A stretch of 39,196 nucleotides of DNA from Flavobacteriales bacterium (GTDB lineage Bacteria > Bacteroidota > Bacteroidia > Flavobacteriales_D > Sanyastnellaceae). Location of the stretch: NCBI GenBank assembly GCA_022428285.1, contig JAKMCX010000180.1, positions 1 through 39,196 of the forward strand, given 5' to 3'. This document shows, piece after piece, positions 1,613 to 34,580 of this stretch. Below the pieces are notes generated by a model. That model was not told the origin of the DNA. It ran no database searches and was given only the letters and a program-made list of their open reading frames with translations. Position numbers and translations under genes: made by a program. How positions within the stretch are numbered: position 1 is the stretch's first letter; the number at the start of each line of letters is the position of its first letter.

Positions 1613-3031
1613 TTAGCGGGCAAGTTTGACCCTGCCGGCGCCGGCTTTGTCGGCGATGCTCAAGACGTGAATGCCTCTGGCGGCGAAGGGTACGGTCCCG
1701 TCTGAACTGTATCCGGAGGAGACCCACCTTCCACTGAGGTCGAAGATGGTCCATTCAAATCCCGCCCGGTGCAACACGCGCCAACCTTCTGGAAGAACAG
1801 CAATCTCGAGGGGCTCAGCTTCTGCATGAGAAGGCAGATTCATCCCTGTGGATATGGTGCCTTTTCGGTAGTGGACGGTTCCCTCAGATGGGCGTTGGTA
1901 GACGAGGTGAACGGTGTTTTCATGGATCCGCACAACAGGGCGGCGGCTGTGTCCAGAGAGGTCTTCGGTCACCTCAATAGCAGCAGAAACCCATTCGTTG
2001 GGCGCTGAAGTTGCATTGCTCCCTACAGCCACGACGATGCCATAACCTCCGAGGTTTCTCTCCCAAGCGGCAACACTGTATTGCCCGTCGGCATCTACAG
2101 AAGGATTGTTTTCGAGGTGGGTGGTTCCGGGCTGTATCCGGTCTGACCCCATCAGGGACCATTCCTCTAAATCAACGGTTGACCAATAGACCCTGCTGCC
2201 TCCTTCGCCGGCAGACATGAACACCACCATGAGCGTGCCATCTGCCAAAATGCAGGTCTCCGCTTCAGATGCAGGGCAAGCGTTGATGTTCCAATCTGTG
2301 GGGTCGATGTCCAGGGCTTCGGTCCAGTTTCCAAGCCCATCGGTTCTGACCATCCAGAAATCGCGGATGTTGTCATTGTTGTTGCGCACGATATCGTAGT
2401 TCCGGCCGCCGTGACTGAAAGGCATGGACGCGCAGCACTCGCAGACCGCTTCACCCTCCATGGCTTGCCCCGCATCCACAGGTGCAGAGAAGGTCCCACT
2501 CGCTGCTTCCCAAAAGAGGGCCCCTTCCAATACAGGAGCAGGCCCCCATTTCACGGTGACCCAAGGCTGCTGGTCGCCATCAAATGCGGGAACAGGCATG
2601 AAATGGTCCACCGTGGCTTCGGGTGCTACAGGAATTGGACTGTCCCATGAAGTGCCGCCGTCTTCGGAGAGCACCAGCCTGCCGCCATTGGCCCATTGTC
2701 CTGACAATTGATACGACACGGCGATGCGGTCACCCGAAACCGCCATTCGCGGTCCTTCGGCGTCATTGATGAACAGTCCTGCCTCGCTGGTGACGGCCAC
2801 GGGTCCATCAAATCCAGAACCATTCCATCGGGTGCAATAAAGGCCGCCATTGGCTCCGCTCTTTCCATGGAGGATCACGGGCGCCCCGCCGTTGTCAAGC
2901 ACCATGCGGAGGTTGGTATAGCCGAAATCTGAAGGGGCAATCGCTACTGGATCTTCCCAACTGATGGAGGTTTGAGACAAGAGCGGACTGGACAAGAAAA
3001 GGGCCAAAGCAACCAGAATAGCATTGCGCAT
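1613..3031 (-). CDS. Secreted sialidase/beta-propeller-like protein with T9SS-like C-terminal sorting domain
   Basis: Signal peptide MRNAILVALALFLSSPLLSQ; repeated propeller-like SEDGGTSWDSPI (Asp-box-like) segment; C-terminus EWTIFDLSGRWVSSGYSSDGTVPFAARGIHVLSI..GRVKLAR resembles T9SS type A domains. Confidence 0.7.
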   Translation of the reverse strand: MRNAILVALALFLSSPLLSQTSISWEDPVAIAPSDFGYTNLRMVLDNGGAPVILHGKSGANGGLYCTRWNGSGFDGPVAVTSEAGLFINDAEGPRMAVSGDRIAVSYQLSGQWANGGRLVLSEDGGTSWDSPIPVAPEATVDHFMPVPAFDGDQQPWVTVKWGPAPVLEGALFWEAASGTFSAPVDAGQAMEGEAVCECCASMPFSHGGRNYDIVRNNNDNIRDFWMVRTDGLGNWTEALDIDPTDWNINACPASEAETCILADGTLMVVFMSAGEGGSRVYWSTVDLEEWSLMGSDRIQPGTTHLENNPSVDADGQYSVAAWERNLGGYGIVVAVGSNATSAPNEWVSAAIEVTEDLSGHSRRPVVRIHENTVHLVYQRPSEGTVHYRKGTISTGMNLPSHAEAEPLEIAVLPEGWRVLHRAGFEWTIFDLSGRWVSSGYSSDGTVPFAARGIHVLSIADKAGAGRVKLAR

Positions 3032-3084
3032 GAGGGGAAGTTAATGCGGCATTCCATTTTCTGGCTTTCGCTAAATTCACTCCC

Positions 3085-4017
3085 ATGAAAGATTTACATC
3101 TCCTTCGTCAGGTCGCATATGCCGCCACATTTTTGATGTTGTGCGGAGCTGCGCAAGCTCAGGTTTTGACCTGTGCAGAAATCCAGGGTGGGTCGGACGT
3201 GAGTCCCTACGAAGGACAGGAGGTGACTGTCACAGGGAAGGTGACGGTCTTTTTCGGTGACATCTGGTACTTACAAGATGACTACGGCCCCTGGAATGGC
3301 CTCATGTGTGTCGGCCCCGATGTGTTGATCGACGCCAACCCACCTTGGTGGAATGCGCCCCGTCAGCCGGAGGTAGGGGATGTGCTGCAGTTGACAGGCA
3401 CCATTTATGAAACAGATGGCAACACTCAGATGATGGACATCACCGAGTTTGTGTTCAATGACTTTTGGAATGCCACCGCTGCGGGAGTGGGGGTGACTGT
3501 TGCTGAGATGATGGACGAAAGTTTAGAAGGGACCCGCGCCAGGTTGGATCCTGTGACCGTGATGACCGCTCCGGAAGATGGCGTGTGGACGGTGTCTGAT
3601 GCTACCGGAACCTTGAAGGTCTATGGTGTCGATACCGACGATCCAGGCCTCAATGAGGATGCTGATGGCCCAACCCCTGGCGATGTCTACCGCATTTACG
3701 GTGCTGTGCGCCAAATTGGAGAGGAGTACGTCTTGGACCTGAGCGACATCGACACGTTGTCTCTCGCCGTGGGGGTTGGCGAAAGAAAAGGGCTGGAAGT
3801 GCTGCTGATGCCCAATCCTGCGCGCGATGCAGTGCGCATTTCAGGACTGGATCAGCCTGGGGTGTGGGATGTTTATGATGCCATGGGCCGAACAGTGCGC
3901 ACAGGCCAGACTTCAGGTGCTTTTACGCTGTCCTTGGAAGGCCTGTTGCCAGGCAGGTACACCGTACAACTCAGTGTTGACGGCGAATCCATTCGCAAGC
4001 CGCTGGTGGTGCACTGA
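3085..4017 (+). CDS. Secreted OB-fold-like protein with T9SS type A sorting domain
   Basis: Signal peptide; YEGQEVTVTGKVTVFFGDIWYLQDDYGPWNGLMC resembles OB-fold domains of secreted bacterial proteins; C-terminal LMPNPARDAVRISGL...YDAMGRTVRTGQTSG...LLPGRYTVQLSVDGESIRKPLVVH is a typical T9SS sorting domain. Confidence 0.72.
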   Translation: MKDLHLLRQVAYAATFLMLCGAAQAQVLTCAEIQGGSDVSPYEGQEVTVTGKVTVFFGDIWYLQDDYGPWNGLMCVGPDVLIDANPPWWNAPRQPEVGDVLQLTGTIYETDGNTQMMDITEFVFNDFWNATAAGVGVTVAEMMDESLEGTRARLDPVTVMTAPEDGVWTVSDATGTLKVYGVDTDDPGLNEDADGPTPGDVYRIYGAVRQIGEEYVLDLSDIDTLSLAVGVGERKGLEVLLMPNPARDAVRISGLDQPGVWDVYDAMGRTVRTGQTSGAFTLSLEGLLPGRYTVQLSVDGESIRKPLVVH

Positions 4018-7119: not shown

Positions 7120-9030
7120 TTATTGCTGCACGACCACGCGGCTGTGAAGGCCGAATGTGGGAAGACTTAGGATGTACACCCCGTGAGGCGCGTTCCAAGC
7201 ATTCCATGAAGACAATGCCCCACTTTGAAGGGTCCTGCCAGCAGCATCCAACAGCGACCATGGCTGTCCAATGCATGCGGCACACTGGATATTAAACCCA
7301 GAATGAGTGGGCACCACAGTAACGTCAGAGCCATCCAGACTTCCTATCGAGAGCACAGATTCAGCAGCGAATGGGGACGACCCGTTCAACACTTCATACA
7401 TGTCGCAAAGTCCGTCGCCATCTGTATCGAGAACAGCTGGAGAACAGGGGTCTTCTGGATCGTGACCGAGCAGAATTTCTTCCATGTCACACCACCCGTC
7501 GCCGTCGGAGTCAGTTGCAATGGGCATACATGGATCTGAATCTGACCAGCCGGATGCCAACTCCATGCCTCCGCACCAACCGTCACCGTCCAAGTCACTG
7601 TCATTGGGGATACAGGCATTGTCCGCATCCCATGCTTCAATGCCTTCAAGCTGGTCGCAGAAACCGTCACCATCGCTGTCTTCGGAGTAAGGAGAACAGG
7701 GATCTATGATGGACGAACCGATGACAATTTCCAACTGGTCACAAAGTCCATCTCCGTCGGTGTCGGTGCCAAGGGGGTCGCAGGTGCTGTTTGGGTCCGT
7801 TCCATTGGCAAGCTCAGCACTGTTGCAGATGCCATCCATGTCCGAGTCCAAAAAGTCAGGGCTGCAGGCATCGTTCAAGTCGGACCCCATGTCCAACTCT
7901 TCCGAATCGCAGTACCCATCTCCATCGGTATCTGTGGTAGCAGGTGAACATGGATTGTTGGGGTTGGACCCCATGAGCTCTTCCTCTATGTCGCAAAAAC
8001 CGTCATTGTCGGAGTCCAGATAGAACGGATCACAGGGGTTTTGGAGGTCTGTTCCCGAGAGCAATTCCATGGCATCACAAGTGCCGTCGCCATCGGTGTC
8101 CTCAATTCCTTCAGTACCGAGATCACACGGGTTGAAGGGATCCGTGCCAAGTTCGAGTTCCAATGCGTCGCAGGTCCCGTCTCCGTCCGTATCCATGGCG
8201 CCATCTTCACAGATTTCTTGGGCGTTTGAGGAGAGCAAGCAAAAGGACTCAATCATGGACGGCTCTTGCGCCAAGGATTGCAGTGCAAATTGGTTCTCCG
8301 AATCGGTGAGGAACAACCCAAACCAATCCGCCCTTTCCACGACAATTCCGTCACAGTTGATGACCACCATTCCGGCGGGTCTTAAAAAGAAATGCTCGTA
8401 GATGATGTTGTTCGGGGAATCGATCAGGATGTCATCCCATGGAAAGGCAAAATCGTTGTCTGACGCAGGGCCCATGAAATCAATCACGGATTGTGCAGCA
8501 TCATAGCGGTCTTGCACAATACGGTGCTGGTTCCGGTACAGGCCGTCTGGGCCTGGAATGGGAAGGTCAGGACAATTTGACGGGCAATTCTCCAAGTCCA
8601 GAGCATGGGCTTCTCCTACGTAAACGGGGACCCAGTTGAAGTCTTCCAAATGGGCCATTACCCATGCGACGATGTTGTTTGGGGCACTCAACAACCAATC
8701 GTTTTGGAACCTCACACAAGTGGCCGAGCCATTCAGGATAATCGTGGGTTTGCTCGGGTTGATTTGCTGCGAAAGAATGAATTCTTCTCCGAGGAAGGAC
8801 CAAAGGTGAAAGTCTCCAATGGTGTCTCCGATGGCATAGCCACCGCTAAAGTCATTGAGCTCTCCACTGTAGGGGAGGTCATCAATGCTGTCATTGGGAA
8901 GAGGCATGACATCAACTCCAAGCCAATCGAAGTGCTCATTTTGACCCATCGCTGCAGAAGCGAAGACCAAGACGAGCGAAAGAATGCTATAACGTAAAAT
9001 CATAGGGGGCACAAAGAAAACGCAGTTCAC
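7120..9030 (-). CDS. Secreted protein: deiodinase/thioredoxin-fold-like N-terminal domain + TSP3-type calcium-binding repeats + T9SS C-terminal domain
   Basis: KPTIILNGSATCVRFQNDW...WVPVYVGEAHALD...HRIVQDRYDAAQSVI resembles the iodothyronine-deiodinase family (LNFGSATC, VYIEEAH, R..AA). Followed by about ten DTDGDGxCDxxE repeats and a C-terminal ...PWSLLDAAGRTLQSGALSSWNAWNAPHGVYILSL segment. Confidence 0.78.
   Translation of the reverse strand: MNCVFFVPPMILRYSILSLVLVFASAAMGQNEHFDWLGVDVMPLPNDSIDDLPYSGELNDFSGGYAIGDTIGDFHLWSFLGEEFILSQQINPSKPTIILNGSATCVRFQNDWLLSAPNNIVAWVMAHLEDFNWVPVYVGEAHALDLENCPSNCPDLPIPGPDGLYRNQHRIVQDRYDAAQSVIDFMGPASDNDFAFPWDDILIDSPNNIIYEHFFLRPAGMVVINCDGIVVERADWFGLFLTDSENQFALQSLAQEPSMIESFCLLSSNAQEICEDGAMDTDGDGTCDALELELGTDPFNPCDLGTEGIEDTDGDGTCDAMELLSGTDLQNPCDPFYLDSDNDGFCDIEEELMGSNPNNPCSPATTDTDGDGYCDSEELDMGSDLNDACSPDFLDSDMDGICNSAELANGTDPNSTCDPLGTDTDGDGLCDQLEIVIGSSIIDPCSPYSEDSDGDGFCDQLEGIEAWDADNACIPNDSDLDGDGWCGGMELASGWSDSDPCMPIATDSDGDGWCDMEEILLGHDPEDPCSPAVLDTDGDGLCDMYEVLNGSSPFAAESVLSIGSLDGSDVTVVPTHSGFNIQCAACIGQPWSLLDAAGRTLQSGALSSWNAWNAPHGVYILSLPTFGLHSRVVVQQ
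7390..8205 (-). repeat. Tandem TSP3-like DxDGDGxCDxxE coding repeats
   Basis: Repeated DTDGDGTCDALELELGTDPFNPCD-type units in the translation of 7120..9030. Confidence 0.85.
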
Positions 9031-9097
9031 GGAATGTTAGTTGCTTCGACACTAACCTTTTGTCGGTGCTCATGTTCATTGCGCTGTCGCAGACTGC

Positions 9098-11626
9098 TCA
9101 AATAGGGGTAAGAGCTTCACTCTCAACCCAGCCGGTGTTGCCGTTGGCGAGTCTGACTTGATGCCAAAGGCCTTCCGTCCTCAGAATCTGAATCACCGTA
9201 CCCTCGTGGATGACGAAAAGCTTCGAAGCTTCGCTGCTGTTCGATGGGCTGCTCAGTACTTCGATCCGTGGCGACATGATCACAGCACCGTCGTTTGATT
9301 TGCGCTTGAGGTCCGTTTCACGTCCCAAGAAGCCCAGCAAAAGCGCCAAGATGCCCAATATGGGTGTCACAATGGCCAATCCACGTCTAATGGCCATGTC
9401 CTGGGAAGCCATACGCACATAGAGCAGTAAAAAGGTCAGCATCCAGAGCGCCAAGCAGCTTACGGTCCAAGTAAATAGGCGGTGGGCCGAGGTCAGTTCT
9501 CTCCACAATGGGGCCAAGTCAATTTCGGGCATCTCTTCGATGCGGTCGACCACAGAGGACCGCGCGAGCAACAGATTGGCATGCAAGTCATCGTCACTCG
9601 GTTGGATGCGTTTTGCCCTTTCAAAGTGCAGGATGCTTGGGCCTATTCGACCGGACTTGTAATGGGCAACGCCGAGGTTGTACTCCAATTCGAAGGAGGT
9701 CCACAGTTCTGCTGCTTCAGAATAAGAGGCCACCGCAGCATCAAAATTTCCTTCGAGGTATGCAGCATTGCCCGCATTAAAAGCCGTTTGAGCAGCCACA
9801 GCATCCGGGGCAGACCAACACCATCCCGGAAAAGCTGTGAGAACCAACAACAGCGCCATGGCTGCAGGTCCAGAGGAAGAGCTTGGCGCCCGCTCTGAGT
9901 CCAATGCTTTGGCGGCCGCTTCTAAGCGGTGGGCAACGTCGGCAACATTTGGGGCCCCAGGTGCAAAGCGCCCTTGGTCCAGTGTTTGGATCAAATAGAA
10001 CCACTCGTTTTGTAAATCTTCTCCGTATCCCGACAGGCAGGCCCTGTATTTGTCCATGCCGGCATCGCTCCTGGAGATTCCCAATTGGCCTTGCAAGAAT
10101 TCGTGGGCTGCTTGACCCAAGTCGTCGAAGCTGGCTCCGCCTTTTTTGGCCTCGCTGAGGGCGGCTTTCAATTGGGCTTTGGACTGGCGTTTGCGCAACA
10201 GCGCGGGGTTGCGTACTTCTTTGTTCTTGCGCCGGCGCATCCCCCATCCAATCAGAAACCCGATGGGAGGCAGTCCCAGCAGCGCCATGTGAAAAGGCCC
10301 ACCAAAAAACGGGTGAGAACGCGGCTTGAGTTTGGTTTCGGTGCGAATGAACCGCATGTCGCGCGTCAGAATGGTGACATCGGTCTTGCTGTTGAACCCA
10401 AAGGCAGGGCCCTCGGCTTGTTCGCTTCCGGTCACATCCAATGCCACAGGGGGAGGGGTGAGTGTCACGAAGCGATCGAGGCCATGGTCGAAGTAGGACA
10501 GCTCGGGTAGCGCGATTTCATACGTGCCCTCTGCCCGTGGTATGACCAAATAGGTCAGCGTCCTACGGCCACGCTGGCCTTGAAAATCCTTGGTGATCCT
10601 GTCTTGGATTTCGGGGTCAAAAACCTCGAGGTCTTTGGGCCATGTGATTTCGGGAGCGCCGATCAGCCCCAAATTCCCATTGCCCTTGAATTCAAGGGTC
10701 AGGTTGATGGCTTCATTGGCTTTTGGTTTGACTTGCCCGTCTGCTTTCCACGTTGCGGTAAGCTTTCGGAAAGTTCCCAAGGAGGAAGCTGGAGTGGGTG
10801 TGGGAAGGGGCAGGACTTCTATGCTTACCGGCCTTGCATCCGAACTCAACGGGCGGGTATTGAAGAACGACACCCGCATTTGAGCCTCCACGTTGAACCC
10901 TGAAATGTCGAGTTTTCCAGTCCGGGTAGGATAGAGGATGTCGGTTCTGACCGTGGCCACTTGAATGCGCTTTCCGTCCACAATGGTGTTTTCCCACCGT
11001 GGATCTTCGCCCTCCACGTTCTCCTTCCAAACCCCTGACAACTCTGGAAAGCTGTAATTCCGAACGTCCACAGCATCCAGTCGGTTGTAAATGCGGTATT
11101 GAACGCGCACCGGTTCTCCGAGGTGGACTTTTTTCTTGTCTGTTTCAATCACAGCTTCAAACTGTGCAACGGATTGACCCGCATTGCTTCCTTGCTTGAC
11201 GACCTTGAGATTAATGGCTTTTGAACGAAGCCTCCCTTTGTTGGTGTTGAATGAGAACGCAGGGATACTCAGTGTACCAGGTTGGGTCACCACGGCAGAA
11301 TAAGTGTAGCCCCTTTTGGAGGTCATGGCCCCGTTGATGATTTGGGTACTTGAAGAGGTGGAAGGGCCACTCAAATAACGCAGCCCTTGGATTTTTGGAG
11401 GGGTTTTGAACTGGACATTGACGCCTTTGAATTCGAACGTGATCCGAAATGCTTTTCCCGCTTCTACGGGGTTTCGGTCCACAACGACTGTCGCTTCTGC
11501 CTGAGCGAAGACCATGGTGCTGGAGGCCAATACCACGAGCACGGCCCCAATGGCATTGCGCCAAGTGATCCAAAGGGAGGGGAGCTTCGGAACCTGTAAA
11601 GCCTTATTCAAATTCACAATACCCAT
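9098..11626 (-). CDS. BatD-BatE fusion (oxygen-tolerance family domain + TPR/SH3 domain)
   Basis: N-terminal BatD-like EATVVVDRNPVEAGKAFRITFEFKGVNVQFKTPPKIQGLRYLSGPSTSSSTQIINGAMTSKRGYTYSAVVTQPGTLSIPAF. C-terminal BatE-like TPR (AFNAGNAAYLEGNFDAAVASYSEAAEL..ELEYNLGVAHYKSG), TM segments and SH3-like VIHEGTVIQILRTEGLWHQVRLANGNTGWV in the same ORF. Confidence 0.85.
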   Translation of the reverse strand: MGIVNLNKALQVPKLPSLWITWRNAIGAVLVVLASSTMVFAQAEATVVVDRNPVEAGKAFRITFEFKGVNVQFKTPPKIQGLRYLSGPSTSSSTQIINGAMTSKRGYTYSAVVTQPGTLSIPAFSFNTNKGRLRSKAINLKVVKQGSNAGQSVAQFEAVIETDKKKVHLGEPVRVQYRIYNRLDAVDVRNYSFPELSGVWKENVEGEDPRWENTIVDGKRIQVATVRTDILYPTRTGKLDISGFNVEAQMRVSFFNTRPLSSDARPVSIEVLPLPTPTPASSLGTFRKLTATWKADGQVKPKANEAINLTLEFKGNGNLGLIGAPEITWPKDLEVFDPEIQDRITKDFQGQRGRRTLTYLVIPRAEGTYEIALPELSYFDHGLDRFVTLTPPPVALDVTGSEQAEGPAFGFNSKTDVTILTRDMRFIRTETKLKPRSHPFFGGPFHMALLGLPPIGFLIGWGMRRRKNKEVRNPALLRKRQSKAQLKAALSEAKKGGASFDDLGQAAHEFLQGQLGISRSDAGMDKYRACLSGYGEDLQNEWFYLIQTLDQGRFAPGAPNVADVAHRLEAAAKALDSERAPSSSSGPAAMALLLVLTAFPGWCWSAPDAVAAQTAFNAGNAAYLEGNFDAAVASYSEAAELWTSFELEYNLGVAHYKSGRIGPSILHFERAKRIQPSDDDLHANLLLARSSVVDRIEEMPEIDLAPLWRELTSAHRLFTWTVSCLALWMLTFLLLYVRMASQDMAIRRGLAIVTPILGILALLLGFLGRETDLKRKSNDGAVIMSPRIEVLSSPSNSSEASKLFVIHEGTVIQILRTEGLWHQVRLANGNTGWVESEALTPI

Positions 11627-25479: not shown

Positions 25480-27927
25480 ATGTATGTGGATGTCATCCTC
25501 CCGTTGGCCCTTCCCGGGCTTTTGACCTATGAGGTTCCCTCTGGCGACGAAAGTGCTGTGCAGGAAGGGTGTCGGATCATCGTTCCGTTGAGGGGTAAAC
25601 GGCTTCACACTGCCGTGGTCCGGCGGATTCACAACAACAAGCCCGACCATGCTACTGAGCCTTATCTCTCGGTTTTGGACACCCAACCCCTTCTTTCTCC
25701 TGCGACGCTCAAATTCTGGGATTGGATTGCGTCACATTACTGCTGCGGACCGGGAGAAGTGGCCCTCGCGGCATTGCCATCTGGCATGAGGCTCGCCAGT
25801 GAGACCAAGCTGGAATTGTCTCCCGATGCCGAAGAACGCGATGAAGAAGAGCTCGGTGACAAGGAGTTTCAAGTGGTCGAAGCACTCCGCTTGAGGGGCG
25901 GATTGTCATTCAAGGAGGTCGGGTCTTTGCTGGGGGTGGTCAATCCCGCTCCACTGCTCCACCGGCTTGTAGAGGCAGGGTGGGTGCTCTCCATGGAGGA
26001 GCTCAAGGCGAGCCCGCGCCGAAAATTGGTCTCTATGGTGAGGTTGTCGGAGCAAGCATGCGCCGATGAGCGCTGGCTCAACGAAGCTTTGGATGCGCTG
26101 GATTCTCGCGCGCCCTCCCAATCCCGCGCCATGATGACCCTTCTCGCAGAGGACGCAGCGCCGGTGGGGGTGCCCTTGGAGAGCCTCACCAAAATGGAAG
26201 GGGTGACCTCTACTTTGTTCAAGAGGCTGATGGAAAAGGGCCTTGTCTTCCAATTCAAGCAAGACCCCTGGCAATTGCAGTCTTCTCAGGAGGTGGAGCC
26301 GCTGGCGACATTGAGTGAAGCACAGCAGAAGGCGGTCGGTTCCATGCGCGAAGCCTTTGAAGCCACCCCTCTTGTGTTGTTGGAAGGCGTGACGGGCTCA
26401 GGAAAGACAGAGGTGTACACCCACTTGATCCACGATGTGCTGGAGTCGGGAAGGGATGCGCTGTTTTTGGTTCCTGAAATCGCCCTTACAACACAGTTGA
26501 TCGTGCGGTTGCGCCGCTTTTTTGGTGACCGGTTGGAAGTCTATCACAGCCGATTTAGCCCCAGGGAGCGCACGGCAACATACCGCCGCGTATCGTCCAA
26601 GGAGTCCAGAGGACGTCTGATGGTAGGTGCACGCAGCGCCATTTTCTTGCCCTTCTCAAACCTGGGTTTGATCGTCGTAGACGAAGAACACGACGCCAGC
26701 TACAAACAACAAGATCCAGCACCGCGGTATCAGGCGCGGGATGCAGCAGCGATGCTGGGCCGCATGCACAGTGCTGCGGTGGTTTTGGGTTCTGCTACAC
26801 CATCGTTGGAGGCGCGATTCGCCGTGCAGTCAGGCCGAGCGGCACACATTGAATTGGCTGAACGGTTTGGGGGGACCTCTTTGCCGGAGGTGGGGCTGGT
26901 TGACCTGCGGAAGGCGCACAAACAGCGCGCCATGGAAGGCCATTTTAGCCGGACGTTGCTCGATGCGCTCAAGTCTACGCTAGAGGCAGGCAAACAAGCG
27001 ATATTGTTTCAGAACAGGCGCGGATTCGCCCCCGTGTATCAATGCCGAACATGCGGTTGGGTTCCGGACTGCGAGCGCTGCGATGTCAGTTTGACCTATC
27101 ACAAGTACCTCAAAGACCTTCACTGTCACTATTGCGGCTACCGGCAGGGCGAGCCCAGTACTTGTCCCCGCTGCGGAAGCGAGGAGGTGGAGGCCAAAGG
27201 CTTGGGAACGGAGCGCATCGAGGAAGAGGTGGTCCAGCTTCTGCCAGGGGTGACGGTGCAACGCATGGACCTGGATACCACCCGCAGTCGGACGGGGCAC
27301 GAACGCATCATCCGAGCATTTGAGCAGGGTGAAATTCAAGTTCTGGTGGGCACACAAATGGTCACGAAGGGATTGGATTTTGAAAGGGTGGGGCTGGTTG
27401 GGATTTTACAGGCTGACCACATGCTGCACTTTCCCGACTTCAGGGCATTGGAGCGGACTTTTCAATTGTTGACCCAAGTGGCAGGAAGGGCGGGGAGAAG
27501 AGGGGAGCGTGGTCAGGTGCTGATTCAGACTTTCGATCCTGAGCATTGGGTATTCCAGCATGTGGTGACCCACGACGCCCAAGCCATGGCGGAAGCGGAA
27601 TTAAAAGAGCGCGCGTCATTTGGCTATCCTCCCATTGTGCGGCTGGTGCGGTTGATCATGCGACACCGCGATCCTCATTTAACCCGGGAAGCTGCGTCGG
27701 CATTGGCAGGCCGTTTGCGCAGCAGGTTCGGCGGTCGGGTCATTGGTCCAGAAGAACCGGGCATTGCCCGGGTCAATGATCTGTATCAGCGGCACATCTT
27801 GCTCAAGGTGGAGCGCACGGTGGATACGGTAAAGTTCAAAGAGGCCATGATGGAAGACATTGGAACGTTGCGGCAGGTTCCCCGCTTCAAGCCGGTCCGG
27901 GTCATAGTCGACATAGACCCGTATTGA
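25480..27927 (+). CDS. priA: Primosomal protein N' (PriA helicase)
   Basis: YVDVILPLALPGLLTYEVP; VLLEGVTGSGKTEVYTHLI; VDEEHDASYKQQDPAPRYQARDAAAMLG; zinc-binding CRTCGWVPDCERCDVSLTYHKYLKDLHCHYCGYRQGEPSTCPRCGSE. Confidence 0.98.
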   Translation: MYVDVILPLALPGLLTYEVPSGDESAVQEGCRIIVPLRGKRLHTAVVRRIHNNKPDHATEPYLSVLDTQPLLSPATLKFWDWIASHYCCGPGEVALAALPSGMRLASETKLELSPDAEERDEEELGDKEFQVVEALRLRGGLSFKEVGSLLGVVNPAPLLHRLVEAGWVLSMEELKASPRRKLVSMVRLSEQACADERWLNEALDALDSRAPSQSRAMMTLLAEDAAPVGVPLESLTKMEGVTSTLFKRLMEKGLVFQFKQDPWQLQSSQEVEPLATLSEAQQKAVGSMREAFEATPLVLLEGVTGSGKTEVYTHLIHDVLESGRDALFLVPEIALTTQLIVRLRRFFGDRLEVYHSRFSPRERTATYRRVSSKESRGRLMVGARSAIFLPFSNLGLIVVDEEHDASYKQQDPAPRYQARDAAAMLGRMHSAAVVLGSATPSLEARFAVQSGRAAHIELAERFGGTSLPEVGLVDLRKAHKQRAMEGHFSRTLLDALKSTLEAGKQAILFQNRRGFAPVYQCRTCGWVPDCERCDVSLTYHKYLKDLHCHYCGYRQGEPSTCPRCGSEEVEAKGLGTERIEEEVVQLLPGVTVQRMDLDTTRSRTGHERIIRAFEQGEIQVLVGTQMVTKGLDFERVGLVGILQADHMLHFPDFRALERTFQLLTQVAGRAGRRGERGQVLIQTFDPEHWVFQHVVTHDAQAMAEAELKERASFGYPPIVRLVRLIMRHRDPHLTREAASALAGRLRSRFGGRVIGPEEPGIARVNDLYQRHILLKVERTVDTVKFKEAMMEDIGTLRQVPRFKPVRVIVDIDPY

Positions 27928-27937
27928 TGTGACTAAT

Positions 27938-27969
27938 TTTGTATAATAGATTATACTAGGCTATATTTG
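27938..27969 (+). promoter_or_regulatory. Bacteroidota-type promoter (-33 TTTG / -7 TAnnTTTG)
   Basis: TTTG at 27938-27941 and TATATTTG at 27962-27969, 20-nt spacer; predicted TSS lies only a few nt upstream of, or at, the leader ATG (27977). Confidence 0.7.
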
Positions 27970-27976
27970 TCACATC

Positions 27977-28057
27977 ATGAACGTTAATCTCAGCATTTGT
28001 TGTTGTTGTTGTCCGGCCCCTCCGGGCAGGTTACCGTCATGCAAGAGAATGAGCTGA
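27977..28057 (+). CDS. Cysteine-rich attenuator leader peptide MNVNLSICCCCCPAPPGRLPSCKRMS
   Basis: ATG AAC GTT AAT CTC AGC ATT TGT TGT TGT TGT TGT CCG GCC CCT CCG GGC AGG TTA CCG TCA TGC AAG AGA ATG AGC TGA. Five tandem UGU codons directly abut a set of alternative RNA pairings. Absent from the ORF track because of its length. Confidence 0.85.
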   Translation: MNVNLSICCCCCPAPPGRLPSCKRMS

Positions 28058-28113
28058 ACAGCCATTGTCCTTTATCCCTTGACCAACCTGCCCGGCCTTC
28101 GCCGGGCTTTTTT
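28009..28113 (+). promoter_or_regulatory. Candidate cysteine-responsive transcription attenuator (protector, antiterminator, terminator)
   Basis: Protector: 28009-28016 with 28022-28029 (UUGUCCGG/CCGGGCAG, GU pairs included). Antiterminator: CCGGGCAGGTT 28022-28032 with AACCTGCCCGG 28085-28095, perfect 11 bp. Terminator: 28090-28096 with 28101-28107 plus T6. Confidence 0.85.
28090..28113 (+). terminator. Intrinsic terminator of the attenuator
   Basis: GCCCGGC (28090-28096) CTTC GCCGGGC (28101-28107) TTTTTT (28108-28113), located just before the ATG at 28122. Confidence 0.9.
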
Positions 28114-28121
28114 ATGCGCCT

Positions 28122-29120
28122 ATGTTTTCTCCTTTACAATTCCAATTTGGAACCGATTCTGCTCCTGTCATTCACATCATCCATGAGAACGATACATGGT
28201 TGGAGCCCTTGCGCCTTGAACTGGCTGAGCGCGCCTTGCCTTATGCCGAGTGGTTTATAGACGACCTCGTTCTGGACCTCACCACTGCGCCGCCTGAGGG
28301 GGTGTTTTACAACCGGATGAGCGCGAGCTCCCACACCAGGGACCACCGCTATGCATGGGAGGCCACGCGTGGATTGATGGGCTGGCTCGAAGCGCACGGC
28401 AGAAGGGTTGTGAACAACAGACGCGCGACTGAGCTGGAGGTGAGTAAAGTAGAGCAGGCCATAGCCTTGCAGGCCAGCGGATTGATGACGCCGAAGACGG
28501 TGGCGGTTACCGGGCCCCAAGCATTGCGAAGTGCAGCAGCCGATTGGTCCGACCCTTTCATCCTCAAGCCCAATCGAGGAGGAAAAGGGACGGGAGTAGA
28601 GCTCGTCCGGAATCAAGCGCAGTTGGACCGAATTGTCGAAGGTTTTGAAGACTACACCTTGGACGGTACTGTGGTCCTTCAATCCTATATACAACCTGCA
28701 GATGGACGGGTTTGGCGACTCGAATTCGTGGGTGGGAATCACCTGTACACGGTGAGCATTGACGCTGGGGGCGGCTTCGAGCTTTGCCCTTCGGATGCTT
28801 GTCAAGTGGGCAACGCCTATTGTCCCGCTGACGGCAGGGCCAAGTTTGAAATCTTGGATGGACACCATCCCCAAGAGTTGGAGCGTTGCTTGTCCTTTTT
28901 GCGCGGCGCGGGGATGGAGGTGGCGGCCATGGAGGCCGCTCCCGATGCCCAAGGCAGGTTGCGGTTTTACGATGTCAACATCAATACCAATTACAATGCT
29001 GATGCGGAGCGTCGACAGGGTGTGGAACGGACGGGAATGGGAGAAATCGCTGCGTTTTTAGGACGAGAACTCGAGGTGGTTCGTGCAGAGGCCAAGCGAC
29101 AAAAACAGCATGCGTCATGA
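28122..29120 (+). CDS. ATP-grasp ligase (RimK/glutathione-synthetase-like fold), substrate unknown
   Basis: SKVEQAIALQASGLMTPKTVAVTGP...WSDPFILKPNRGGKGTGVELV...TVVLQSYIQPADGRVWRLEFVGG...YDVNINTNYNADAE: ATP-grasp Lys/Gly-rich loop and metal-binding D.N.N.N motif. Confidence 0.85.
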   Translation: MFSPLQFQFGTDSAPVIHIIHENDTWLEPLRLELAERALPYAEWFIDDLVLDLTTAPPEGVFYNRMSASSHTRDHRYAWEATRGLMGWLEAHGRRVVNNRRATELEVSKVEQAIALQASGLMTPKTVAVTGPQALRSAAADWSDPFILKPNRGGKGTGVELVRNQAQLDRIVEGFEDYTLDGTVVLQSYIQPADGRVWRLEFVGGNHLYTVSIDAGGGFELCPSDACQVGNAYCPADGRAKFEILDGHHPQELERCLSFLRGAGMEVAAMEAAPDAQGRLRFYDVNINTNYNADAERRQGVERTGMGEIAAFLGRELEVVRAEAKRQKQHAS

Positions 29121-30265
29121 CCAGAATGGCACCAAAAAGGGAGGGGCTGAAAGCCTCCCAGACCGCCAAACAGGTCGCCGTCGTTGGGGGTGGCATTATG
29201 GGGGCGATGACTGCAGCGCACCTCGTCGATCAAGGGGCAAAAGTCACCTTGTACGACCCGAATCTCATGGGGACCGGGCCCGGCGCTTCTGTCGATACCG
29301 GCCGGAGCTTTAGGGTCCATTATGGTGAGGACAAGGGCTTGATCAAGATGGCGGTCCGGAGCCGCGTTCTTTGGGGAAACTGGGAGCGAGAACTGGGACG
29401 GCCTTTGCTGCATACCACAGGGAAGCTGCTGATTGAGGAGCCCGGAGACCGACATGCCCGCGACAGTTGGAGGGCCATGCGCTCACTTGGGCTGCGGGCC
29501 GACCGCATGTCCAAGGGTGCCGTCTCTGAGGAGTGGCCTGGTCTCCATACAGGGGCCGCCACCGTGGACCGCATGGGAGGGGTGCTTGACCCCATGGTCA
29601 TCCTCCAAGGGTTGCTCGTGTGGTTGGCCTCCAGAGGGGTGGATTTCAAAGGCGAAGCATTCGACGTGACGACCACCGCTGTAGAATGCGCCAAAGGCCG
29701 TGCAGAGTTCGACTCCGTCGTGTTGACGGCTGGAGCGTGGACGCGCCGTTGGACCGAGGTTTCTATGGAAGTCACGCGTCAAGAACTCGTGTATTTTGAT
29801 GCTTCAGCTTTGGGGGGCCGGTTGCAAAACCTGCCAGTATTCAGCCACATGGAAAGCGGATTTTATGCCATTCCGACGGTCAAGGATGGACGGATCAAGG
29901 TGGCCAACCACCACCCCGGGGTCCAAGGCCATCCCGACGGAGATGCGCGTCAGGTTTCCGCGGCTTTTGAGCAGGAAGCACGAAAGTTCTTGGGCCGTTA
30001 CATTCCGGAGTTGGCCGAAGCCGACGTGGCCAGGCGGTACGTCTGTTTCTACAGTGGCACAGCAGACCGAGATTTCATTTTGGATCGAACGTCAGAAGGG
30101 CTGGTGATCGGAGCGGGTTTTAGTGGCCACGGATTCAAATTTGCCCCATTGATTGGGCGCCTTCTGGCACAACTCGCATTGGGGTTAGAGCCGGAAGTGA
30201 ACCTCGACCGTTTTTCTATGAAGCGTCCAGCACTGCGGGGTGCGCGAACAAAGATTGCCGTCTAA
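29117..30265 (+). CDS. FAD-dependent amine oxidase, monomeric sarcosine oxidase / N-methyltryptophan oxidase-like
   Basis: VAVVGGGIMGAMTAAHLVDQGAKVTLYD dinucleotide fold; GRSFRVHYGEDKGLIKMAVRSRVLW; YVCFYSGTADRDFILDR...GLVIGAGFSGHGFKFAPLIGRLLAQLAL matches the MSOX covalent-flavin Cys and C-terminal GFSGHGFKF motifs. ATGA overlap with the ATP-grasp gene. Confidence 0.88.
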   Translation: MTRMAPKREGLKASQTAKQVAVVGGGIMGAMTAAHLVDQGAKVTLYDPNLMGTGPGASVDTGRSFRVHYGEDKGLIKMAVRSRVLWGNWERELGRPLLHTTGKLLIEEPGDRHARDSWRAMRSLGLRADRMSKGAVSEEWPGLHTGAATVDRMGGVLDPMVILQGLLVWLASRGVDFKGEAFDVTTTAVECAKGRAEFDSVVLTAGAWTRRWTEVSMEVTRQELVYFDASALGGRLQNLPVFSHMESGFYAIPTVKDGRIKVANHHPGVQGHPDGDARQVSAAFEQEARKFLGRYIPELAEADVARRYVCFYSGTADRDFILDRTSEGLVIGAGFSGHGFKFAPLIGRLLAQLALGLEPEVNLDRFSMKRPALRGARTKIAV

Positions 30266-30275
30266 TGTCAGCCGC

Positions 30276-30554
30276 TTAGCTGCCAGCATTATCGCCTTCT
30301 TCTGGCGGTGTGGATTGAACCCAGACCCTGGCCAATACGACCATCAGGAGGGTAAAAGCAACGGTGCAAGCTGCTGCGTATCCCCAAGTTCCTTGGGGCT
30401 CTGGCACATCCAGGCTGTCTGCCCTCAGTTGAGCGAGGCGAAGACGCGCATTGCGCACAATGAAATGGCTGCCCCAGGCCACCAGAGGGGCTAGGATGAG
30501 CCAGGCCCGAAACCACGGCTCAAAGTCCTTCCAATGGTGAGGCTTGTCTTTCAT
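30276..30554 (-). CDS. Small membrane protein, two predicted TM segments
   Basis: MKDKPHHWKDFEPWFRAWLILAPLVAWGSHFIV...WGYAAACTVAFTLLMVVLARVWV; overlaps the start-proximal yggS gene end. Confidence 0.6.
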   Translation of the reverse strand: MKDKPHHWKDFEPWFRAWLILAPLVAWGSHFIVRNARLRLAQLRADSLDVPEPQGTWGYAAACTVAFTLLMVVLARVWVQSTPPEEGDNAGS

Positions 30555-31237
30555 CGGTGGCCAAATATGGAGCTTCCAATGCGGACCATATTGCTGCCGT
30601 TGTCCACCGCTATTTGCCAATCACCGCTCATGCCCATGGACAATGTGTCCCAACCAAAGGAGTCCCGGTATCGATCGTAAAGCTTCCGCAGGCTTTGAAA
30701 CTCCCGCGCTACTTGCGCCCGGTCTTCAGTAAATGTGGCCATGCCCATGAGGCCTTTGATTTCCACCTGAGGCCAATGGCCTGTATCTACATCGCTGAGC
30801 AATGCAGCAAGCTCCGATTCGGACAGGCCGAATTTGCTGCTTTCCTGAGCGATGTGAAGCTGAAGGAGCACGGAGATTTTACGCCCATTGGCGTCAGCGC
30901 GCTTGTCGACTTCGTCCAACAAAGACCTTTGATCGACCGCGTGAATGAGTCCAACGAATGGCGCGATGTACTTCACCTTGTTTTTCTGAAGGGTGCCGAT
31001 TTGGTGCCAGGACAGGTCGGGATAATCCGCAAGTTGTCCAGTCTCGGGATGGGTCAGGGCTTCATGTTTGCCCACCAATTCCTGAACGCGGTTTTCTCCA
31101 AAACTGCGCGCACCCGCTGTGTACGCCGTTTCTATGGCAGAGATGGGCTTGGTTTTGCTGACCGCAATCACCTGCACTTCGGCAGGCACTGCAGCCCTGA
31201 CCTCATTCCAACGCTGCGCAATGTCCCATCCGTCCAT
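30551..31237 (-). CDS. YggS family PLP-binding protein (PLP homeostasis protein)
   Basis: EVQVIAVSKTKPISAIETAYTAGARSFGENRVQELVGK...LSWHQIGTLQKNKVKYIAPFVGLIHAVDQ...LSMGMSGDWQIAVDNGSNMVRIGSSIFG. Confidence 0.95.
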   Translation of the reverse strand: MDGWDIAQRWNEVRAAVPAEVQVIAVSKTKPISAIETAYTAGARSFGENRVQELVGKHEALTHPETGQLADYPDLSWHQIGTLQKNKVKYIAPFVGLIHAVDQRSLLDEVDKRADANGRKISVLLQLHIAQESSKFGLSESELAALLSDVDTGHWPQVEIKGLMGMATFTEDRAQVAREFQSLRKLYDRYRDSFGWDTLSMGMSGDWQIAVDNGSNMVRIGSSIFGHR

Positions 31238-31247
31238 GGTACAAAGG

Positions 31248-32456
31248 TCAGGATGAAGGCCCGAAATCAAAGAGGGTCATGCCGCTGCGCAATTTTGGGG
31301 CAATCCAGGTGCTTTTTGGCGGTAAATGCCGGCCATCATCTGCCACTTTTTGGAGCGTTGAGAAGGTCATGGGCGGCATGATAAAAGCCAAGCGCAACGG
31401 ATTTGATGTGGTGGCTTCGAGCTCATCTTGGGCCAAGTCACCAGCGAGGTATTTCAGCCGTCGGTCTGTTCGGGGCTCTGCAATGTCAAACAACGGGTTC
31501 AACACCTCTTCTTGCAGCCACTCAGCAGGGGTGTTCCCTAGAGAACGCAGGGCCTTTTCTATGTGGAGTGATCCCACAATGGCCCCGCGCAAGAGGATGC
31601 AACCCTCTGTAGGCTCAGGGTGATGGTCTCCTGGTTGCCACAGGACTCCGTCAAGCCTGTTCAGTTGCTGAAGCACCCTGGCGCATTGCTGGTCGTCCTC
31701 TACCTGGACCGTGCGGTGAAAACCGCGAAACATCAACTCGTCTTCAGCCACAAGCAAGGCCATAAAGGCGTGAGACTCCTTTCGGTCAGGATGGGCCTCT
31801 GCCATCTTCATGCTCGAGGCTACCCGGTGGTGGCCATCGGCGATGTAGGCATGTTCCACCGTTTCAAACGCAGCCGTCAGCTGGGACAATGCGCTGCGGT
31901 TTGGTCGCCACAGGGTGTGGCGGATCCCGTCGGCTGTGGTGAAGTCAAAGTCGGCGGGTTGATCGGTGACGGCGCGAATGGCGGCATCAACATCGGCATT
32001 GAAAGGGTGCGCCAACAGGGTGGGTTCAGCATTGAGGCCGACCTCCGACAGATACTGGGCAAACAGGGCTTCTCGGTTCGCCAAAGTCGCCTCATGCACC
32101 TTGATTCGGCCCGTTTTGGCCTCTGCAGTTGGCACCAATCCAACGACGCCAGTGCACGTTCCCATGGGCCCAGATTGCCTCTGGACATAGTAATTCTTGT
32201 GCCCATCACGCTCCAACCATCCCCGTTTTAAAAACGCTTCATACGCGCCTCTGACCGAGGCAAGGTCTTTACTGGAGTCCAAGTCGCCATCTGGGTGGAT
32301 GACGTGCAGATAGCTGTATGGATTGCGCGCGAGCTTGTCTTTGAGCTCGTAATCGCTGTAGCTCAAATAGCTGCGTGTGGCCACAAGATGGGCCTTGTCC
32401 CGACTGGGCAAAACACCTTCAAAAGGTGTCAAAAGGAGGGGCGGCTTCGTTGACAT
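31248..32456 (-). CDS. DUF1015 family protein
   Basis: SYLHVIHPDGDLDSSKDL..ARGAYEAFLKRGWL-type text, LWRPNRSALSQLTAAFETVEHAYIADGHHRVASSMKMAE, FIMPPMTFSTLQKVADDGRHLPPKSTWIAPKLRSGMTLFDF. Confidence 0.92.
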   Translation of the reverse strand: MSTKPPLLLTPFEGVLPSRDKAHLVATRSYLSYSDYELKDKLARNPYSYLHVIHPDGDLDSSKDLASVRGAYEAFLKRGWLERDGHKNYYVQRQSGPMGTCTGVVGLVPTAEAKTGRIKVHEATLANREALFAQYLSEVGLNAEPTLLAHPFNADVDAAIRAVTDQPADFDFTTADGIRHTLWRPNRSALSQLTAAFETVEHAYIADGHHRVASSMKMAEAHPDRKESHAFMALLVAEDELMFRGFHRTVQVEDDQQCARVLQQLNRLDGVLWQPGDHHPEPTEGCILLRGAIVGSLHIEKALRSLGNTPAEWLQEEVLNPLFDIAEPRTDRRLKYLAGDLAQDELEATTSNPLRLAFIMPPMTFSTLQKVADDGRHLPPKSTWIAPKLRSGMTLFDFGPSS

Positions 32457-32495
32457 TGAACGGGCGCGCCGGAAGGTACCGGTAGCGGGTTCGAA

Positions 32496-33461
32496 TTAAC
32501 GCAATTCAAGAATGCGTTCAACGAGTTCGTCGCCAATCCGATCTTGGGCTTCGAGGGTTGCCGCGCCGATGTGGGGGGTGAGGGCCAAACCGGCGACGCT
32601 CAGCAGTGAAGCATCGGGCTTGGGCTCTCCCACAAAGACATCGAGGGCTGCGCCGCGAAGGTGTCCATTTTCCACTGCAGAGCGGACTGCGCTTTCATCC
32701 ACGGTGCCGCCTCTGGCGGTGTTGACCAACATGGCACCCGGTTTCATGGAAGCGATGCCAGCAGCATCCAGCACGGGTGAGCCGTCCGATTGCGCAGGAA
32801 CGTGGAAGGTGATGGCGTCTGCTTTGGCCAGCATGTCCTCCAGGGGAACCAAAGGGATTTCTACTTCGATGTCTTGAATTTTGGCGCCGCCAAGGGGCAC
32901 TTCGACATGGACAGTGCGGGAAGTGCCTTCGCGGTCTACGCCGATGACGTGCATGCCACAACCAAGCGCGTATTGGGCCACAGCCGTTCCAATGCGGCCA
33001 AATCCTACAATACCGAGGGTCTTTCCTCGAAGTTCAATGCCCTTGGCGTAGGCCTTCTTGAGCACTTTGAACTCCTCTGCACCCTGTTCCGGCATGGCGC
33101 GATAGCTGTGTTGCAGAGAACGCGCCATGGCAAACAAGTGGGCCATCACCAGTTCAGCCACGCTTTGGGAGCTGGCCGCGGGCGTGTTGAACACGACCCG
33201 TCCTTGCTCTCGGGCGTAAGCCACATCGATGTTGTCCATTCCGACGCCACCCCGCCCGATAAACCGCAGGTTGGGGCAGGCGTCGATGAGGTCTTGGCGG
33301 ACCTTGGTTGCACTGCGCACGAGGATGCCATCGTAGCCTTCTGAATTGAGGGTGTCGATCAGGTTGGCTTGATCCACATGGTCAGTGGAGACATGGACGC
33401 CAGCGGCTTCGAGCTGGGCTTGGGCCTTGGCAGAAATGCCGTCGTTTGCAAGGACTTTCAT
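32496..33461 (-). CDS. serA: D-3-phosphoglycerate dehydrogenase (D-2-hydroxyacid dehydrogenase family)
   Basis: LRFIGRGGVGMDNIDVAYAREQGRVVFNTPAASSQSVAELVMAH...GKTLGIVGFGRIGTAVAQYALG...MLVNTARGGTVDESAV; adjacent to serC. Confidence 0.88.
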   Translation of the reverse strand: MKVLANDGISAKAQAQLEAAGVHVSTDHVDQANLIDTLNSEGYDGILVRSATKVRQDLIDACPNLRFIGRGGVGMDNIDVAYAREQGRVVFNTPAASSQSVAELVMAHLFAMARSLQHSYRAMPEQGAEEFKVLKKAYAKGIELRGKTLGIVGFGRIGTAVAQYALGCGMHVIGVDREGTSRTVHVEVPLGGAKIQDIEVEIPLVPLEDMLAKADAITFHVPAQSDGSPVLDAAGIASMKPGAMLVNTARGGTVDESAVRSAVENGHLRGAALDVFVGEPKPDASLLSVAGLALTPHIGAATLEAQDRIGDELVERILELR

Positions 33462-33497
33462 GGCAGGATGGTCGGTGTTTCTTTTGGATAAAGGGGG

Positions 33498-34580
33498 TCA
33501 GCCGTGGGTGCGCTCGAATTCTTTCATGACGTCGGTGAGCACTTCGACGCTGGAGAGGGGCAACGCATTGTACATGGAGGCGCGGAAGCCGCCAATGGAC
33601 CGGTGCCCCTTGATTCCATTGATGCCCGCTGCATTGCAAGCGTCCAAGAACAGAGGGGTGTGGGTCTCATTCGCTGCGGTGAACGTGGCGTTCATGACGC
33701 TGCGCGACCCAAGGGCTGCATACCCATTGAACAGCGGATTGCGGTCTATTTCACCGTAGATGCAGGCGGCTTTGGCTGCATTGCGCTGTTGCATTTCGCG
33801 CACACCGCCTTCGCCTTTGAGCCAGCGCAAAGTCAGCATGCTCGTATAGATGGCAAAGACGGGGGGCGTGTTGAACATGCTGTCTTTGTCGGCGTGAACC
33901 GCCAAATCAAGATAGCTGGGCAAATCGCGTCCTGTTTGGCCCACTTGCCGCTTGTCATAGATGTAGAGGACGGTCCCTGCAGGGCCCATGTTCTTTTGGG
34001 CGCCGGCGTAGATGCAAGCGTACCGCTCGATGTCGATGGGACGCGAAAAAATGTCCGAGGACATGTCCGCAACCATGGGCTTGTTTACCGAGGGGTCACC
34101 GGCATATTGTGTGCCGTAAATGGTGTTGTTCGTCGTGATGTGGACAGCGCTGGCAGAGGATGCCGCCGGCAATTCAGGAATGTGGTTAAACCCACTGTCT
34201 TCGCTGGATGTGATGGCCTGCGCTGTGCCCATCTTGCGCGCTTCCTTCAAGGCCTTCTTTGCCCATGTTCCGGTGACAGCGTAGTCCATGCTGCCATTTG
34301 ACGGGGTGAAATTCATGGCCGTTGTGAGAAAGCCCAAGCTGGCGCCGCCTTGGAGAAACAAGACTTCGTAATGGTCGGGGAGGCTCAATTCGGAACGGAC
34401 CAAATCCCGGGCTTCTTCCATCACGGCCACAAAGGGCTTGCTGCGGTGGGAAATTTCAATCAAGCTGAGTCCGCCACCATCGAGGTCGCGAACCGCATCG
34501 GAGGCCTGCTGAAGCACGGAAGGTGGCAGAATACAAGGGCCTGCAGAAAAATTATGGATGGTATGGGTGGTGGTCGACAT
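33498..34580 (-). CDS. serC: Phosphoserine aminotransferase
   Basis: IHNFSAGPCILPPSVLQQASDAV...GLSLIEISHRSKPFVAVMEEARDLVRSELSLPDHYEVLFLQGGASLGF...YACIYAGAQKNMGPAGTVLYIYDKR. Confidence 0.96.
   Translation of the reverse strand: MSTTTHTIHNFSAGPCILPPSVLQQASDAVRDLDGGGLSLIEISHRSKPFVAVMEEARDLVRSELSLPDHYEVLFLQGGASLGFLTTAMNFTPSNGSMDYAVTGTWAKKALKEARKMGTAQAITSSEDSGFNHIPELPAASSASAVHITTNNTIYGTQYAGDPSVNKPMVADMSSDIFSRPIDIERYACIYAGAQKNMGPAGTVLYIYDKRQVGQTGRDLPSYLDLAVHADKDSMFNTPPVFAIYTSMLTLRWLKGEGGVREMQQRNAAKAACIYGEIDRNPLFNGYAALGSRSVMNATFTAANETHTPLFLDACNAAGINGIKGHRSIGGFRASMYNALPLSSVEVLTDVMKEFERTHG

Follow-up and report, generated by a model that had tools for sequence, protein, structure and literature searches.

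A two-gene operon in the window (the whole stretch of DNA analyzed, 39,196 nt of a draft Flavobacteriales genome of 2.69 Mb in 261 contigs) encodes an ATP-grasp ligase and an FAD-dependent oxidase downstream of a putative cysteine-responsive attenuator. The reading that we favor, with reasonable confidence, is that this attenuator governs a translationally coupled operon whose core is a RimK/LysX-like ATP-grasp enzyme for cysteine supply, and that the oxidase, of the monomeric sarcosine oxidase (MSOX) type, is an accessory of one lineage. At the level of sequence, the comparisons establish the leader, the terminator, a competing antiterminator and their conservation, as well as leaders on known cysteine and methionine assimilation genes. 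Joint control of both genes by the Cys attenuator appears real, and the ATP-grasp enzyme probably helps the bacteria to obtain cysteine by a route not yet described, since the same switch guards known cysteine-making genes. The regulatory linkage gives a widespread ATP-grasp family a firm functional context, namely sulfur amino acid supply.

The features are collected in Table 1. The first gene is separated from the promoter by a short ORF in which several codons for the presumed regulating amino acid follow one another. The candidate promoter resembles the Bacteroidota -7 consensus, given in PMC9723704 as TAnnTTTG at -12 to -5, and box-to-ATG distances were compared over the clade leaders. 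Because the promoter position puts the predicted transcription start at about 27974, some 3 nt 5' of the leader ATG, the leader mRNA would be nearly leaderless. The antiterminator helix is a perfect duplex of 11 bp (-26.5 kcal/mol, z -5.4 compared to shuffles). In constrained folding, which is a model only, the terminator has a probability of 1.0 with the ribosome placed at the stop codon of the leader, compared to about 0.02 with its footprint over the last Cys codon. The window thus has a terminator and a mutually exclusive antiterminator just past the stall codons, an arrangement that is weaker in some relatives. A search of the window against Rfam at the gathering threshold gave no match. 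As the earlier note had read from the sequence, the terminator U-tract (28108-28113) ends 8 nt 5' of the ATP-grasp ATG at 28122, and the ATP-grasp stop codon overlaps the oxidase start.

Table 1. Positions of the leader and operon features in the window and, in the last two lines, of features in the Pediococcus acidilactici plasmid locus L214.
Feature	Position	Strand	Basis or description
Candidate promoter, Bacteroidota-type	27938..27969	+	TTTG 27938-27941, spacer 20 nt, -7 box TATATTTG 27962-27969
Leader ORF, MNVNLSICCCCCPAPPGRLPSCKRMS and stop codon	27977..28057	+	read from sequence; polyCys orthologues in 14/14 clade operons with upstream DNA
Cys run, TGT x5, codons 8-12, presumed stall site	27998..28012	+	sequence
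Antiterminator arm (segment 2), CCGGGCAGGTT	28022..28032	+	perfect complement of 28085-28095; just 3' of Cys-stalled ribosome
Antiterminator partner (segment 3), AACCTGCCCGG	28085..28095	+	overlaps/contains 5' arm of terminator
Intrinsic terminator GCCCGGC-CTTC-GCCGGGC-TTTTTT	28090..28113	+	sequence; -15.8 kcal/mol
ATP-grasp ligase, RimK/LysX-like, 332 aa	28122..29120	+	sequence, family profiles, structure model
ATGA stop/start overlap	29117..29120	+	kept in intact orthologous operons
FAD-dependent oxidase, monomeric sarcosine oxidase/N-methyltryptophan oxidase family, 382 aa	29117..30265	+	sequence, profiles, alignment
Oxidase covalent-FAD Cys codon	30044-30046	+	alignment
T-box (L214)	7807-8035		
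Thioredoxin-like protein, SDF-family (dicarboxylate-type) symporter, ATP-grasp homologue (L214)	8092-10930		

From these features we infer ribosome-mediated (leader peptide) attenuation of the classical type, with the operon, by the same inference, on at low cysteine. Scarcity of Cys-tRNA(Cys) would make the ribosome stall on the Cys run of the leader, which is predicted to be near-leaderless. This would leave segment 2 free to pair with segment 3, by which the terminator is broken and the operon transcribed. With plentiful cysteine the ribosome would move across segment 2 as far as the stop codon, allowing the terminator to form. Most leaders of the genus retain an extra Cys codon near their end (PSC or SSC; 28040-28042 in the window), and slowing of the ribosome at this codon would mask the antiterminator arm and favor termination.

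The operon was compared across draft metagenome-assembled genomes (MAGs). Of the 17 genomes of the genus, 14 have an orthologous operon, and the three that lack it are only 67-78% complete; within the family, one further genus has the operon as well. All 14 clade operons with upstream DNA (the window and 13 orthologues) have a Cys-run leader and a terminator. The antiterminator duplex scores better than shuffled sequences (p <= 0.02) in 11 of the 14 clade leaders. Folding of L033, L034, L038 and L041 gives a switch like that of the window, and in L036, L037, L042 and partly L044 and L045 the terminator persists at equilibrium despite a stalled ribosome. The whole-leader MAFFT alignment was too gappy, and helix pairs were counted in hand-anchored columns; there, own helix partners pair at 3.17 of four variable positions, compared to 2.58 for species-swapped partners. 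Compensatory changes in the helix are few, with a two-sided change at one position, from G-C to C-G in L039-L041. The proposal in the earlier note that one Cys leader controls both genes is strengthened by this comparative evidence, the leader, terminator and ATGA overlap being conserved in the clade. Two loci, L031 (G004:C61 21276-22241) and L118 (G446:C2), have an ATP-grasp gene with one in-frame TAG, suggesting a pseudogene or an assembly error.

A scan of GTDB species genomes yielded 252 relatives of the ATP-grasp protein, the best 80 of which were studied. By one fixed rule, a polyCys leader with a terminator precedes 39 of 45 Bacteroidota-type homologues, compared to 2 of the 268 remaining ORFs of these loci (Fisher p 7e-41, not corrected for kinship, and the genomes are related and hence not independent). 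These counts bear on the possibility that the leader is a chance short ORF and the terminator that of priA, so that expression of ligase and oxidase would be independent of cysteine. The end of priA at 27927, only about 50 nt 5' of the leader, is in keeping with such a reading. It is nevertheless extremely improbable given the consensus-type promoter after priA and the recurrence of the arrangement behind other upstream genes at the above frequencies. In Saprospiraceae, Chitinophagales, Kapaibacterium and other Bacteroidota-type loci a terminator accompanies polyCys leaders whose flanking sequences are unrelated, and none of the 33 proteobacterial ATP-grasp loci has a Cys leader. On the protein tree of the ATP-grasp family the leader label changes only four times. 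Leaders are found in one large Bacteroidota clade and in a separate high-GC family, f47 (L114-L116), in which they are weaker; this suggests, as far as sequences tell, that the association arose independently in f47. A pattern search in f47 found no further leaders beyond those of the ATP-grasp genes.

In the clade comparison, presence or absence of the oxidase matches that of a full-length ATP-grasp match in 60 of 60 relatives (15 with both, 45 with neither), and two further genomes have weak ATP-grasp matches only (E about 1e-5). Outside the Flavobacteriales clade no oxidase lies near the ATP-grasp gene in any studied locus (best 80 of 252 relatives), and a moderately similar oxidase occurs anywhere in the genome in only 4 of 18 genomes. 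The pairing of the two genes put forward in the earlier note therefore holds inside the clade but not outside it, where the oxidase is not adjacent and the leader stays with the ATP-grasp gene; rare co-occurrence, which that note had named as grounds for refutation, is found outside the clade and not within it. Judged by these distributions, the conserved target of the attenuator is the ATP-grasp gene and the oxidase is an accessory of one lineage. The ATP-grasp gene is usually solitary, and outside the clade no generally conserved neighbors were found. A divergent class III aminotransferase gene adjoins it in 11 proteobacterial loci. Tandem polyCys leaders, each with its own terminator, precede the ATP-grasp gene in L068 (3947-4407) and L086 (5531-6001) and appear to be double attenuators. 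Automatic leader calls in L121 and L091 were in the wrong frame or spurious and were left out as evidence; in a different frame, L091 does have what looks like a true leader.

The one Firmicutes context is a Pediococcus acidilactici plasmid (L214), with an ATP-grasp homologue of 44% identity behind the genes for a thioredoxin-like protein and a dicarboxylate-type symporter. A Cys T-box was expected there. The T-box that heads this operon (69.7 bits, short of the gathering score of Rfam) has AUU or UUA as its specifier instead of a Cys codon, and the context therefore does not point to cysteine.

Leaders of the same kind are found before genes of known function. Four members of the genus have a polyCys leader with a terminator ahead of a gene for cysteine synthase of the CysM type, and wherever the sequence beyond it was read, a gene for a JAMM peptidase comes next; the CysK-type paralogues have no Cys leader. 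Outgroup genomes L248, L249, L251 and L254 have a polyCys leader before cysM-JAMM-ThiS/peroxiredoxin-MoeB, and outgroup L256 has one before a NirA/sulfite reductase-siroheme synthase-cysH operon. Mixed Met/Cys leaders precede metY (O-acetylhomoserine sulfhydrylase) in L252 (~560-735) and L255 (~808-985), with leader peptides MMCCCMMICCM and MMCCCMCCCSC. The gene order in L062 is Met/Cys leader, metY, a metX-homoserine dehydrogenase fusion (metX/hom) and the ATP-grasp gene. The ATP-grasp enzyme is placed in sulfur amino acid supply because of these co-regulated genes and this one shared operon, and a cysteine attenuation regulon is predicted for the Bacteroidota. That the operon would serve cysteine supply rather than consumption, as had been argued from its expected induction, gains from the occurrence of such leaders before the cysM, sulfite reductase/cysH and metY operons. 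In the genome of the window itself no other CCCC leader was found besides that of this operon, a search that could miss interrupted runs. A leader-plus-terminator pattern match in C212 was rejected; its spacing is unchanged across several species, and it resembles coding sequence. Tandem leaders before cysM, each with its own terminator, are seen in L248 (560-1080) and L249 (480-900) as apparent double attenuators. Between the JAMM and MoeB genes of the Cys-attenuated operon of L248 lies a ThiS-like sulfur-carrier domain fused to a peroxiredoxin (2556-3467).

The nature of the signal should also be considered. The polyCys nascent peptide could respond not to tRNA-Cys charging but to oxidation, to an electrophile or to a metal that binds thiols. 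Metal binding is conceivable for the Cys runs, which reach a length of seven, the oxidase should make H2O2, and one operon of the regulon contains the peroxiredoxin-ThiS fusion. We consider such sensing very improbable, as only the Cys run is shared between leaders while the flanking residues vary freely, and the antiterminator sits just past the stall site. Moreover, Met codons are interspersed with Cys codons in the metY-type leaders (MMCCCMMICCM), which is what a response to amino acid supply would predict.

The ATP-grasp structure was predicted with a pLDDT of 89.3, and its closest folds are LysX, ArgX and RimK (3vpd, 5k2m, 3vpb, 5zct; Foldseek E 6.7e-17 to LysX). The residues expected to bind ATP and Mg are present as invariant K109, K149, E271, D284 and N286. 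They belong to 30 positions that are invariant in 78 homologues and that include R65, S67, S69, R73 and a CPxxxC motif. The two invariant cysteines, C222 and C227, lie in the CPxxxC loop, which is poorly modeled (low confidence). Although RimK and LysX/ArgX are the best structural matches and share the fold, sequence identity to them is only 15-22%. The scores are below the cut-offs of the curated families (rimK_fam 52.8 of 143.4 bits, LysX_arch 34.9 of 275.6), and the enzyme is therefore not counted as a member of either. Other differences from RimK and LysX/ArgX are the extra CPxxxC motif and that no gene for a LysW-like carrier was seen alongside.

Two other functions can be considered for an enzyme of this type under the same attenuator. 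The operon could spare cysteine or protect against its lack, by RimK-like protein modification or by a Cys-free substitute compound made in starvation. RimK does modify a protein, RimK-like models are the best sequence matches and a usually solitary gene would suit such a role. However, the co-regulated genes are biosynthetic and one operon joins the ATP-grasp gene to metY-metX/hom, which makes this function unlikely. Alternatively, the operon could make a Cys-containing small molecule (a low-molecular-weight thiol or Cys-peptide), with the attenuator balancing this product with free cysteine. Amino acid conjugates are common products of ATP-grasp ligases, and the invariant C222 and C227, in their low-confidence loop, would be compatible with it. 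Yet a Cys-consuming pathway would then be switched on just when cysteine is scarce, and the regulon partners are Cys-producing; synthesis of a conjugate is accordingly quite unlikely in our view. Under the favored reading, the ATP-grasp enzyme would add to cysteine supply.

The form of this supply may be connected to the sulfur physiology of the genus. The sulfite reductase family NIR_SIR was found in none of the 17 genus genomes, six of which are at least 90% complete. A control search detected NIR_SIR in 11 of 14 known genomes, and MAG incompleteness may partly explain the absence. The organism is probably dependent on sulfur in reduced or organic form. Since sulfite reductase is missing, salvage of organosulfur compounds would be the more probable form of cysteine supply here, and the operon points to a new cysteine-acquisition route in Flavobacteriales that apparently cannot reduce sulfite.

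MSOX carries covalent FAD and oxidizes N-substituted or cyclic alpha-amino acids, giving H2O2. The oxidase of the operon aligns end to end with it (PDB 1el5, E 2.7e-52). Cys310 falls in the column of the covalent-FAD Cys315 of MSOX. Neither this column nor those of MSOX R49, R52, Y254, K265, H269, Y317 and K348 vary among 14 orthologues. The motif GFSGHGFKF is invariant as well, and the description of this motif and of the flavin-linking Cys in the earlier note was thus correct. The hallmarks of the MSOX family are all found: the DAO fold, the covalent-FAD Cys315, the R52/K348 carboxylate clamp and K265. Homology to monomeric sarcosine oxidase and N-methyltryptophan oxidase is full-length, and the carboxylate-binding and O2-activating residues are shared with them. 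Unlike in monomeric sarcosine oxidase, the position of M245 is Phe and the gene is in an operon with a ligase. The scores are below the NCBIfam cut-offs, both for soxA_mon (160.1 of 479.65) and for N-methyl-L-tryptophan oxidase. Because the active-site residues of MSOX are conserved, the analysis predicts a covalent-FAD enzyme that oxidizes N-substituted or cyclic alpha-amino acids with release of H2O2. Its substrate could be such an amino acid made or used by the ligase, and thiazolidine-4-carboxylate is, speculatively, one candidate. A wider proposal can be made only tentatively. Bacteroidota and some neighboring lineages may possess a cysteine attenuation regulon comprising cysM-JAMM-MoeB, sulfite reductase/cysH, metY/metX and the ATP-grasp gene, sometimes with tandem attenuators, in which the ATP-grasp enzyme catalyzes an undescribed step of cysteine acquisition. 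The Flavobacteriales clade, without sulfate reduction, would then have recruited the sarcosine oxidase-type enzyme to free cysteine from an N-substituted or cyclic derivative.

Comparable leaders are known from other phyla. The leaderless polycysteine ORFs of mycobacteria (Canestrari et al. 2020, as cited by PMC9031893) are likewise short upstream ORFs with a Cys run; they precede sulfur and cysteine genes and are considered sensors of Cys availability. For the leader in the window, near-leaderless translation is a prediction from the promoter. Similarly, actinobacterial cys/cbs leader peptides have runs of Cys codons before sulfur and cysteine genes (PMC1262725). The system described here differs from both in phylum, in targets and in having an intrinsic terminator and an antiterminator, whereas no conserved terminator was found for the mycobacterial leaders, for which Rho was suggested (PMC1262725). 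The uORFC-8-2 motif before cysS in Rhodobacterales (PMC8632094) combines an upstream ORF that contains Cys codons with an intrinsic terminator behind it, and ribosome-mediated attenuation was proposed for it as well. It is likened here by arrangement, not by sequence; it has two Cys codons, occurs in alphaproteobacteria and controls cysteinyl-tRNA synthetase. The attenuators of Flavobacterium psychrophilum amino acid operons (PMC9723704) share the phylum, the general mechanism and the promoter type, and the available text of that paper describes none for cysteine. Our literature search turned up no Bacteroidota cysteine attenuator and nothing on an operon combining ATP-grasp, sarcosine oxidase and cysteine. 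Polycysteine attenuators are thus known in Actinobacteria and Rhodobacterales, and the Bacteroidota regulon around this ATP-grasp gene appears to be new.

Downstream of the operon, at 30551-34580 on the minus strand, the window carries convergent genes for yggS, DUF1015, phosphoglycerate dehydrogenase and serC (serine synthesis). A serC-like sequence lies near the operon in some relatives too.
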